Shown here: positions 4,794 through 7,119 of the stretch, in pieces
Position numbering within the stretch: position 1 is the first letter of the stretch
Layout of the letters: the number at the start of each line of letters is the position of its first letter
Origin: an uncultured Clostridia bacterium
Lineage (GTDB): Bacteria > Bacillota > Clostridia > Oscillospirales > Ruminococcaceae
Length of the DNA stretch: 57,192 nucleotides
Reading direction: 5' to 3'
NCBI GenBank assembly: GCA_947630845.1
Contig: CANRJB010000017.1
Span: 1 to 57,192, forward strand
Made by a program: the position numbers and the translations under genes
The notes under the pieces: model-generated
What the model saw: only the letters and a program-made list of their open reading frames with translations
Database searches by the model: none
What the model was told of the DNA's origin: nothing

Positions 4794-5324
4794 TTATTTA
4801 CAGAATTTCTCTATGTACCGCTCAATATCCTCGCTGATGATCTGCTTTGCAGTCTCAAGATCCTCAACCTCATTGACGGCGGTCGTCTTATTTTCCAGCT
4901 CTTTGTACACACGGAAGAAGTGCGTCATTTCGGCAAAGACATGTGCCGGCAGTTCGTCAATGGCATGATAGCTGTTGTAATTCGGGTCATCAAAGGGAAT
5001 GGCGATGATCTTATCATCATGCCGTCCGTTGTCGATCATGCGGATGACACCGACCGGATAGCAGCGCACAAGCGTCATGGGATTCAGTGCCTCTGAGCAA
5101 AGCACAAGCACATCGAGTGGATCTTCATCGTCAGCATAGGTACGGGGGATAAGACCGTAATTTGCCGGATAGTGGGTAGAGGTATGCAGGATGCGGTCAA
5201 GCTTCATACAGCCTGTCTCCTTGTCCAACTCATACTTGATCTTGCTGCCCTTCGGGATCTCGATGACTGCCACAAAATCTTCGGCACTGATGCGCTTCGG
5301 GCTGATATTGTGCCAGATATTCAT
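4794..5324 (-). CDS. ppa: Inorganic pyrophosphatase, family I
   Basis: Hydrolyses pyrophosphate to two phosphates in the cytoplasm and so pulls PPi-releasing reactions forward. The 176-residue length fits soluble family I bacterial enzymes. Recognisable pieces are EIPKGSKIKYELDKETG near residue 22, NYGLIPRTYADDEDPLDVLVL with the acidic metal-binding cluster (about 54-74), and VIRMIDNGRHDDKIIAIP further on. It is the first gene of a ppa-prs operon; PRPP consumption yields PPi, so the pairing is sensible. ATG 5324 follows GAGGTGAT. The promoter lies at 5401-5429. Confidence 0.93.
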   Translation of the reverse strand: MNIWHNISPKRISAEDFVAVIEIPKGSKIKYELDKETGCMKLDRILHTSTHYPANYGLIPRTYADDEDPLDVLVLCSEALNPMTLVRCYPVGVIRMIDNGRHDDKIIAIPFDDPNYNSYHAIDELPAHVFAEMTHFFRVYKELENKTTAVNEVEDLETAKQIISEDIERYIEKFCK

Positions 5325-5400: not shown

Positions 5401-5429
5401 AGTATAACGTCATTTCCGGGATTTGTCAA
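5401..5429 (-). promoter_or_regulatory. Sigma-A promoter of ppa-prs
   Basis: On the minus strand TTGACA (5429-5424), a 17-bp spacer and TATACT (5406-5401), about 75 bp before the ppa ATG. The 180-bp direct repeat starts inside this -10 box: the second copy at 5853 keeps TTGACA but has TATACC. Confidence 0.85.
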
Positions 5430-5581
5430 TGCTTACCGAAAAAGAAATCGAATTTCAGCAACCGTGATAATTTTGTGTAAAATTCAGAACAATTTATAGG
5501 CAAAACAGAAGAATTGCCTTTCTCCACACTGCCGGACGGCATGCAGAATGGGAGTTGATTTTTGTGCAATATGCCGAATGT
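5402..5581. repeat. 180-bp direct repeat, copy 1
   Basis: By direct reading, identical over 180 bases to 5853-6032 (offset 451). It contains the -35, spacer and most of the -10 of the ppa promoter. In copy 1 it is followed by the MITE-like element; in copy 2 by the promoter of the aldolase-family gene. Both copies are non-coding in any convincing way. Complete identity implies a recent duplication, ongoing gene conversion, or an assembly effect. Confidence 0.95.
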
Positions 5582-5852
5582 CCCGACTTTGCCACTTAGT
5601 TAATAAAAAAATTGCTAAAATCTCCCGAAAAATAGCGAAAAAACGGCTTCCGATTTTTTGATATTTATGCTCTACGTTTTTTTATCAAATTATCGTGGCT
5701 TTTCGCCTATATTCCTTTGTTTTCCTTATATGCCCACATTTTTTGAATTTCTCAACGTAGTGCTATAATGTAGTCATATAAAATTTTCCCTATAAATAGG
5801 CATTTTCAAAAGCTAAAATATTTAAAAATCTAAAACAAGTGGCAAACTTGGG
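5582..5852. mobile_element. MITE-like element with imperfect terminal inverted repeats
   Basis: A 271-bp AT-rich segment between the two 180-bp repeats. The left end reads CCCGACTTTGCCACTT and the complement of the right end reads CCCCAAGTTTGCCACTT, sharing an uninterrupted TTTGCCACTT. No reading frame of useful length is present, so any transposase would act in trans. A TATAAT box at about 5764 could start transcription towards the right. The long flanking duplication is not the short target duplication expected from ordinary transposition. Element type is inferred from termini and size only. Confidence 0.6.
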
Positions 5853-6032
5853 GTATAACGTCATTTCCGGGATTTGTCAATGCTTACCGAAAAAGAAATC
5901 GAATTTCAGCAACCGTGATAATTTTGTGTAAAATTCAGAACAATTTATAGGCAAAACAGAAGAATTGCCTTTCTCCACACTGCCGGACGGCATGCAGAAT
6001 GGGAGTTGATTTTTGTGCAATATGCCGAATGT
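5853..6032. repeat. 180-bp direct repeat, copy 2
   Basis: Second identical copy of 5402-5581, ending 12 bp before the -35 box of the aldolase-family gene. It carries a duplicate ppa -35 box pointing left, with the -10 changed to TATACC where it meets the MITE-like end. Recombination between the copies would delete the element and one repeat (451 bp). Confidence 0.95.
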
Positions 6033-6144: not shown

Positions 6145-7119
6145 ATGGAACGCAAAGGTAATCTGATGACCTACAGACCGGATATCAAGGTTCTGGATGC
6201 TACTGTCCGTGACGGCGGACTGGTAAACAATTTCCGCTTTACGGATGAATTCGTGAAGTCGCTGTATCTCACCAATATCCGTGCAGGTGTGGACTATATG
6301 GAAATGGGCTATCTCGCCGATACCGATATCTTCAAACCGGAAGACTTCGGCGACTGGAAATTCTGCAAGGAGGAATCCATCCGCCGCATCGTTGGCAACA
6401 ATGATACGGATATGAAACTCTCCGTCATGGCAGATGTCGGCAGAGCCAATCTCCAGCGTGACCTGCATCCCAAAGAGGAGAGCGTCCTCGATATGGTGCG
6501 TGTAGCAACGTATATCAATACCATGCCGGCTGCCATTGAAATGATTGAATATGCACACAACCTCGGCTATGAGACAACATGTAACATCATGGCGATCTCC
6601 AAGGCAGATACCAACGACATTGAAGAAGCACTATCTCTTCTGGTAAATTCCAGTGTCAATGCTGTCTATATCGTGGACAGCTACGGCGCACTCTTCCCGG
6701 AACAGATCCAGAAACTTTCCCAGATGTATGTCGGAGCAATGGAACAAGCCGGAAAGCTCGTCGGCATCCATGCCCATAACAATCAGCAGATGGCATTTGC
6801 CAACACCGTTGAAGCATGCTCCATGGGGGCAAGCTATCTCGACGCCACCATCGGCAGTATGGGCAGAGGCGCAGGCAACTGTGCTATGGAACTGCTGCTC
6901 GGTTTTCTGAAGAATCCCAAATATAACCTTGCTCCCGTCCTGAAATTCTACGAGGAGCATATCCTGAAACTGAAGGAAGATGGTCTGAAGTGGGGCTATG
7001 ATGTGCAGTATCTGCTGACCGGCAAGATGAATCTGCACCCCTCTTCTGCAATTGCCTTCACAGCAGAAAACAGGACTGATTATTCCGATTTCTATCATCA
7101 GTTGTTCGATCTGGAATAA
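6145..7119 (+). CDS. DRE-TIM metallolyase (HMGL-like aldolase) family protein
   Basis: A 324-residue cytoplasmic protein of the HMG-CoA lyase-like / 4-hydroxy-2-oxovalerate aldolase superfamily. The start of the TIM barrel carries DATVRDGG (18-25), the family metal- and base-binding signature, and GIHAHNN near residue 210 supplies the two metal-binding histidines. The substrate cannot be read from sequence: members include HMG-CoA lyase, 2-isopropylmalate synthase and oxovalerate aldolase. At this length it lacks the regulatory C-terminal domain of isopropylmalate synthases. ATG 6145 follows GGGAGG at good spacing. It is monocistronic, with its own promoter and a terminator at 7204-7232. Confidence 0.8.
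   Translation: MERKGNLMTYRPDIKVLDATVRDGGLVNNFRFTDEFVKSLYLTNIRAGVDYMEMGYLADTDIFKPEDFGDWKFCKEESIRRIVGNNDTDMKLSVMADVGRANLQRDLHPKEESVLDMVRVATYINTMPAAIEMIEYAHNLGYETTCNIMAISKADTNDIEEALSLLVNSSVNAVYIVDSYGALFPEQIQKLSQMYVGAMEQAGKLVGIHAHNNQQMAFANTVEACSMGASYLDATIGSMGRGAGNCAMELLLGFLKNPKYNLAPVLKFYEEHILKLKEDGLKWGYDVQYLLTGKMNLHPSSAIAFTAENRTDYSDFYHQLFDLE

Follow-up and report, generated by a model that had tools for sequence, protein, structure and literature searches.

A MITE of an IS1634-family clade with long target duplications that start in promoter -10 boxes

The window (the whole 57,192-nt stretch of DNA analyzed) carries, upstream of the inorganic pyrophosphatase gene ppa, a 271-bp segment that is best explained as a recently active non-autonomous MITE of a clade of the IS1634 family, mobilized in trans by a transposase of that clade that the assembly lacks. 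The 158- to 184-bp repeats beside its copies read as target-site duplications made at insertion. The flanks of the MITE and its relatives show that the transposase-3' end is joined to a predicted sigma-A-type promoter between the fifth and sixth bases of the -10 box (TATAA^T). Taken jointly, the identity of the element, the long duplication, and the targeting of a promoter box form a reading in which we have high confidence.

The window site and the four copies of the MITE

Pairwise comparison within the window gave 180/180 identity between 5402-5581 and 5853-6032, with a start-to-start spacing of 451, confirming the two identical 180-bp copies noted in a preliminary description of this DNA. 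Chance is far too small an explanation for an exact repeat of 180 nt. At 30.6% GC, the middle segment (5582-5852) is poorer in GC than the repeat (38.9%) and the window (49.5%), and its longest open frame is 49 codons. Its termini are 16-nt inverted repeats, CCCGACTTTGCCACTT and AAGTGGCAAACTTGGG, complementary at 14/16 positions (88%). The AT-rich segment thus has inverted ends, as had been described, although the true repeat is somewhat longer than the TTTGCCACTT given at that time. The coordinates of all features are collected in Table 1.

Table 1. Features at and around the insertion in the window
Feature	Position	Strand	Remarks
ppa, inorganic pyrophosphatase, promoter hit by the MITE	4794..5324	-	Pfam PF00719, 204.6 bits
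ppa promoter TTGACA-N17-TATACT	5401..5429	-	11/12 consensus matches
Target duplication, ppa-side copy	5402..5581	.	180/180 identity to 5853-6032
271-bp MITE, IS1634-family clade, right end at -10 box	5582..5852	+	four identical genomic copies
Left terminal inverted repeat CCCGACTTTGCCACTT	5582..5597	.	
Extended -10 motif TGCTATAAT within the MITE, directed at the 6145 HMGL-like gene	5761..5769	+	pattern match only; absent from the promoter-scan list
Right terminal inverted repeat AAGTGGCAAACTTGGG	5837..5852	.	identical to the right end of L188, a same-genus transposase-bearing fragment
Target duplication, second copy	5853..6032	.	begins GTATAACG, complement of CGTTATAC, i.e., promoter cut within the -10 box
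HMGL-like gene, opposite side	6145..7119	+	Pfam PF00682, 78.7 bits

Of the ppa promoter, the ppa-side copy of the duplication contains the -35 box and the first five bases of the -10 box, together with the region upstream. On the minus strand, the promoter reads TTGACA (5429-5424), a 17-nt spacer, TATAC (5406-5402), and, after the cut, T (5401); the insertion point at 5402/5401 lies between the fifth and sixth -10 bases. The repeat therefore starts inside the ppa -10 box (TATAC^T), exactly as the preliminary description had placed it, although the status of this start as a rule for the MITE and its relatives had been missed. The same description had the repeat end 12 bp before the -35 box of the next gene; manual reading agreed, placing a promoter-like TTGCTT-N17-TATGAT site there, a site that the promoter scan did not list. 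A promoter scan of the window site alone was not above shuffles (2 sites versus a shuffle mean of 3.1). The TGCTATAAT motif at 5761-5769 is a possible outward promoter of the MITE.

The genome containing the window, G000 (2.03 Mb, 43 contigs, 91.84% complete), gave no match to a transposase of the clade and has four copies of the MITE, on contigs C17 (the window), C27, C19, and C4. The copies are identical over 271 bp, which suggests recent insertion events. Long exact duplications abut all four, with sequences unrelated between sites and lengths of 180 bp at C17, 184 bp at C19, and 172 bp at C4; at C27, the left copy is 158 bp and its first 120 nt recur at the right, where the contig ends. 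Thus, a search for other genomic copies flanked by long duplications, which had been proposed as a check, returned three more copies, all so flanked. With its own long exact duplication at every genomic copy, the element conforms to the earlier suggestion of an unusual route that copies neighboring DNA. The term "MITE-like element" was also apt, since the segment is short (271 bp) and noncoding, with 16-bp terminal inverted repeats and four identical copies. The accompanying statement that ordinary transposition duplicates a few bases overlooked the long variable duplications already described, in a review, for IS1634 and IS1549 (PMC2266710).

Matches to the MITE were present in 3 of the 120 relatives searched, own genome included: the four full copies in the latter and stretches of ~28 and ~45 bp in the two others. 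No empty site was found in 38 same-genus genomes, own included, and the intergenic region is unconserved in the genus.

Besides the ppa promoter in the window, the MITE entered, at C27, the promoter of a gene for a class I aminoacyl-tRNA synthetase (judged by manual reading to be of the valine type), directly upstream of a T-box leader (Rfam RF00230, 113.5 bits, L002:1332-1109, minus strand). This leader begins about ten nt after the -10 box, so the transcription start is independently marked there. At C4, the gene downstream encodes a 6-pyruvoyl-tetrahydropterin synthase (queD-like), and next to it comes a radical SAM gene (queE-like). The C4 duplication also spans the 3' end of the upstream dus gene, which is intact. 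The gene downstream of the C19 copy has no Pfam match, and rtcB lies at the other side. At each site, the gene-side copy joins the promoter to its own sixth -10 base. Since the gene hit keeps a complete promoter, we infer that insertion at the ppa, tRNA-synthetase, and queD-like promoters is tolerated. Recombination between the duplication copies could excise the element precisely.

IS1634-family relatives and their duplications

Among 394 genomes of the order, own included, four have the terminal-repeat pattern of the MITE. In one of these, G135, it adjoins an IS1634-family transposase, and the ends of that insertion, on contigs C70 and C78, share a 54-bp direct duplication in which one base is mismatched. 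With the C-terminus of this transposase as the query, 44 loci were found in genome_contigs, 39 of which have a clade-type right end (no more than 2 mismatches in the first 10 bases). Complete clade elements are mostly 2.0 to 2.2 kb long and end in CCCGAGTTTGCCACTT or near variants. Two full-length clade transposases scored 306 and 295 bits against NCBIfam IS1634 (cutoff, 100) and also matched Pfam DDE_Tnp_1. The end consensus given for the IS1634 family is C-----YT (PMC2266710), and the CCCGASTTTG and CCCAAGTTTG ends of the clade relatives and the MITE have C1, T7, and T8. The typical family duplication of 5 to 6 bp was not seen in the clade; wherever a clade duplication was seen, it was 38 to 435 bp long. 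The 10-bp core of the MITE, TTTGCCACTT, is also the core in most clade ends. Beyond the ends, the MITE and these relatives have little in common, with a best stretch of about 29 bp.

A clade transposase fragment occurs in 1 of the 38 same-genus genomes (G012, locus L188), and its right end equals that of the MITE over 16 nt and is followed by TTATAGCGCA. A class-wide search returned only relatives of 33 to 40% identity, in 10 of 391 genomes. Plasmids held distant relatives only (76 records, all below 60% identity, and 20.8 to 27.8% among the 40 matches listed), as did phages (3 records, 27.6 to 31.1% identity). Protein search of viral_contigs found no clade relatives. The terminal-repeat 16-mer occurs at six loci in that collection, and the sole complete element among them is L167. 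Four others (L166, L168, L169, and L170) show one end each, without the target motif described below, and L171 has two right ends, one of them followed by TTATTTCC. No solved structure convincingly resembled the clade transposase (best E value, 0.29).

Duplication lengths were compared in 19 complete elements with at least 90 nt of flank on both sides (18 genome_contigs loci and L167). Nine have a duplication, of 38, 60, 93, 117, 132, 135 (one mismatch), 179, 198, and 435 bp; in the 179- and 435-bp cases, the left copy is truncated where the contig stops. No abutting duplication was found in the other 10 (L066, L073, L074, L077, L078, L079, L080, L091, L092, and L096). L079 has a terminator-like 57-bp repeat, which is not directly adjacent to the element on both sides. 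As a guess, the missing duplications reflect recombination between copies or chimeric assembly. The 38-bp case, which is L167, weakened the idea that the minimum duplication length corresponds to the upstream footprint of the polymerase (about 54 bp).

The MITE duplications (158 to 184 bp) have a far narrower range than those of the full-length relatives (38 to 435 bp). A span as small as that of the four MITE lengths, which lie within 26 bp, occurred in 0.9% of random fours drawn from 14 lengths (10 of relatives and 4 of the MITE), a pattern noticed post hoc.

Beyond the clade, 35 IS1634-family loci were analyzed, 30 from one search and 5 from another. Duplications of at least 60 bp were found in eight (L028, L106, L107, L114, L117, L119, L122, and L135) and duplications of 5 to 7 bp with fairly clear ends in five (L031, L121, L123, L130, and L132); the remainder had unclear ends, doubtful ends with few matching bases, or no duplication. 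The 93-bp duplication of L028 starts in a -10-like box (TGTGGTATAA^T), and so does the 85-bp duplication of L182, a locus from the class-wide search, in the single-contig genome G1165 (TATATAA^T). Six of those eight (L106, L107, L114, L117, L119, and L122) have a T-rich left flank, not a -10 box on the right. These six, from genomes of the phylum, have other ends (CCTGASTTTATCAG and CTTGACTTTGTCAG), with duplications of about 70 to 405 bp. Inspection of this T-tract subgroup for terminator hairpins, made without a control set, found no consistent hairpin. Long duplications may be commoner in the IS1634 family than the review's account of it implies (PMC2266710).

In the one-contig genome G1148, 7 of the 11 sites of a more distant element that were readable by hand carry TATA where the rule would put it; this DNA is AT rich and follows no full motif rule, and the count was weighed as weak. 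A related IS1634-type transposase has 25 matches in the same genome, many of them interrupted by stops, as in a decaying burst.

Target motif and -35 box at the transposase-3' end

The consensus extended -10 element of sigma-A promoters is TGnTATAA. Read outward from the transposase-3' end, the flanks of the elements show its complement, TTATAnCA. The match was exact in 20 of 40 right flanks, at least 6/7 in 30, and at least 5/7 in 34, compared with 2, 2, and 3 of 26 left flanks, respectively, two of these left flanks being L079 and L096. The 40 right flanks are those of the four MITE copies and of 36 relatives whose flank is 20 nt or longer, three flanks of 1 to 2 nt having been excluded. The motif had been spotted in part of those 40 flanks before all were counted; L167 and L188, read after the counting, match at 7/7 and 6/7 positions. 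Six of the 40 right flanks lack the motif (four or fewer matches), likewise six of 42 when L167 and L188 are included. L079 seems flipped, and the other motif-less right flanks do not fit the rule. TATAA stands at the transposase-5' side in L079 and L096, with a near match at either side in L096; both elements are possible flipped insertions.

All 11 gene-side junctions that could be read have a T just past the cut, which completes TATAAT or a variant of it. No pair of right flanks from the relatives (MITE sites excluded) exceeds 60% identity over 60 nt. The other (left) end attaches farther upstream, at a distance of tens to hundreds of bases, and no clear motif marks its position. The predicted promoter pattern at the right end is TTGACA-N17-(TGn)TATAA^T.

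Of 37 flanks 200 nt long, the 31 with at least 5/7 motif matches were scored for a TTGACA-like hexamer; the mean was 4.00/6 at the 17-bp spacer and 0.90 to 2.06 at every other spacer length between 12 and 23, although this sliding control is too easy. A fairer control used intergenic background -10 sites from the same 367 kb, with 20,000 matched draws. For perfect TGnTATAA targets, the -35 score was 3.71 (n = 21), compared with 3.65 for intergenic TGnTATAAT sites (n = 31; Fisher p = 0.25). In contrast, the 15 targets with an imperfect -10 (5 to 6/7) had a mean -35 score of 4.27, which was reached by 0 of 20,000 matched draws, the background scores of intergenic sites followed by T being 1.71 (5/7; n = 421) and 2.62 (6/7; n = 78). 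Over all 36 targets with at least 5 matches, the mean -35 score was reached in 9 of 20,000 draws. The insertion sites thus show a -35 and a -10 box 17 bp apart, as a sigma-A promoter does, although at perfect -10 sites the -35 box is not above background. An imperfect -10 box paired with a strong -35 box is the behavior of working promoters; since the -35 box at perfect motifs is no better than background, it is the 15 imperfect sites that carry the argument for whole promoters. These scores suggest that the elements target real promoters and not merely a short motif.

Proposed mechanism, alternatives, and known systems

DDE chemistry would place the junction of the right 3' end in the template strand, between -8 and -7, and that of the left end 38 to 435 nt upstream on the opposite strand. 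The 3' hydroxyl of the right end would attack within the -10 box on the template strand, probably during promoter recognition by RNA polymerase holoenzyme, which would mark the site. The left end would then attack the other strand upstream of the occupied promoter, with the holoenzyme keeping this second attack upstream of itself, and host synthesis would fill the long stagger to give the duplication of 38 to 435 bp. The RNA polymerase step of this scheme is tentative, and we hold it at well below even confidence. So too the broader proposal, that a clade of DDE transposons targets holoenzyme-bound promoters with the first end at the -10 template strand and the second only upstream of the bound polymerase, is offered as a possibility about which we remain rather doubtful. 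If it is true, a long target duplication would be a footprint of promoter occupancy, insertion at essential promoters would be harmless, and the long, one-end-specific duplications seen in other IS1634 subgroups would point to different bound complexes at the target.

Alternatively, the transposase itself might recognize promoter-like DNA (TGnTATAA and perhaps a second contact near -35) with no part played by RNA polymerase, the long duplications arising from uncoupled strand transfer by the two ends. An insertion point fixed to the base would suit such recognition, as would the perfect TGnTATAA targets, where no -35 signal rises above that of background TGnTATAAT sites. The strong -35 boxes at imperfect -10 targets (4.27 versus 1.71 and 2.62; 0/20,000) speak against it, and we consider direct reading by the transposase plausible, at not far short of an even chance. 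Random insertion followed by selection, with only promoter-duplicating insertions surviving, would account for sites that include promoters of probably essential genes (ppa and tRNA synthetase). By reasoning, selection would not fix one end inside the -10 box and leave the other free, and insertions at neutral sites should survive too; this explanation is very unlikely.

The remaining two alternatives deny that the repeats were made by transposition of this kind. The preliminary description had allowed that a tandem duplication of the intergenic region captured the element, which would have been inserted by an ordinary short-duplication event. Such a history would produce the same local layout at 5402-6032, but it does not match four unrelated sites that have differing lengths and repeats abutting on both sides, and several relatives are alike; with four independent sites against it, it was rejected and has next to no probability. 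Short-read metagenome assembly could be suspected as the source of the repeats because G000 is in 43 contigs with one copy at a contig end and most clade records are metagenome assemblies. An artifact would, however, require two different junctions per locus, 158 to 184 bp apart, at four loci, and long duplications also occur at IS1634-family elements in the single-contig genomes G1165 (85 bp, L182), G779, G662, and G799. The four loci and the single-contig genomes led us to reject an artifact as extremely unlikely.

With one end fixed in the -10 box and the other free upstream, the origin of the long duplications is now testable. Such insertion is a route for a transposon into the control region of probably essential genes with their promoters retained, and clade elements could serve for promoter mapping.

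In the literature, IS1634-family duplications are given as 5 to 6 bp and those of IS1549 and IS1634 as 8 to 514 bp, with no mechanistic model proposed in the review's entry on them (PMC2266710). The relevant passages of PMC4549789 and PMC1798306 contain nothing on target choice, and no report of promoter-targeted, long-duplication insertion was present among the literature matches listed; the original IS1634 and IS1549 papers may say more. Like IS1634 of Mycoplasma mycoides and IS1549 of Mycobacterium smegmatis, the clade combines a transposase of this family (by NCBIfam) with long variable duplications; unlike those two as described in the review's entry, where it is unmentioned, the clade shows promoter targeting by one end (PMC2266710). 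ISPfe2 and ISGka5 belong to the same transposase family, and the duplications reported for them are 6 bp, compared with 38 to 435 bp in the clade (PMC3281130, PMC8024623). IS1630 of Mycoplasma fermentans is a different element with longer-than-usual variable duplications of 16 to 26 bp, much shorter than those of the clade, in an account that, in the text concerned, assigns it to no family and does not name IS1634 (PMC3317919).

Like bacterial MITEs mobilized in trans by insertion sequences, the present element is short and noncoding, occurs in several identical copies, and has the terminal repeats of transposase-bearing relatives; unlike them, it is promoter directed, and the sequence in common with the relatives in hand is little beyond the ends. 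The usual target duplications of MITEs are also much shorter than the present ones. Yeast Ty3 and Ty1 are targeted to transcription-initiation sites via the transcription machinery, but they are retrotransposons that act at Pol III genes with short duplications, and their likeness to the clade elements would be an analogy of logic only.
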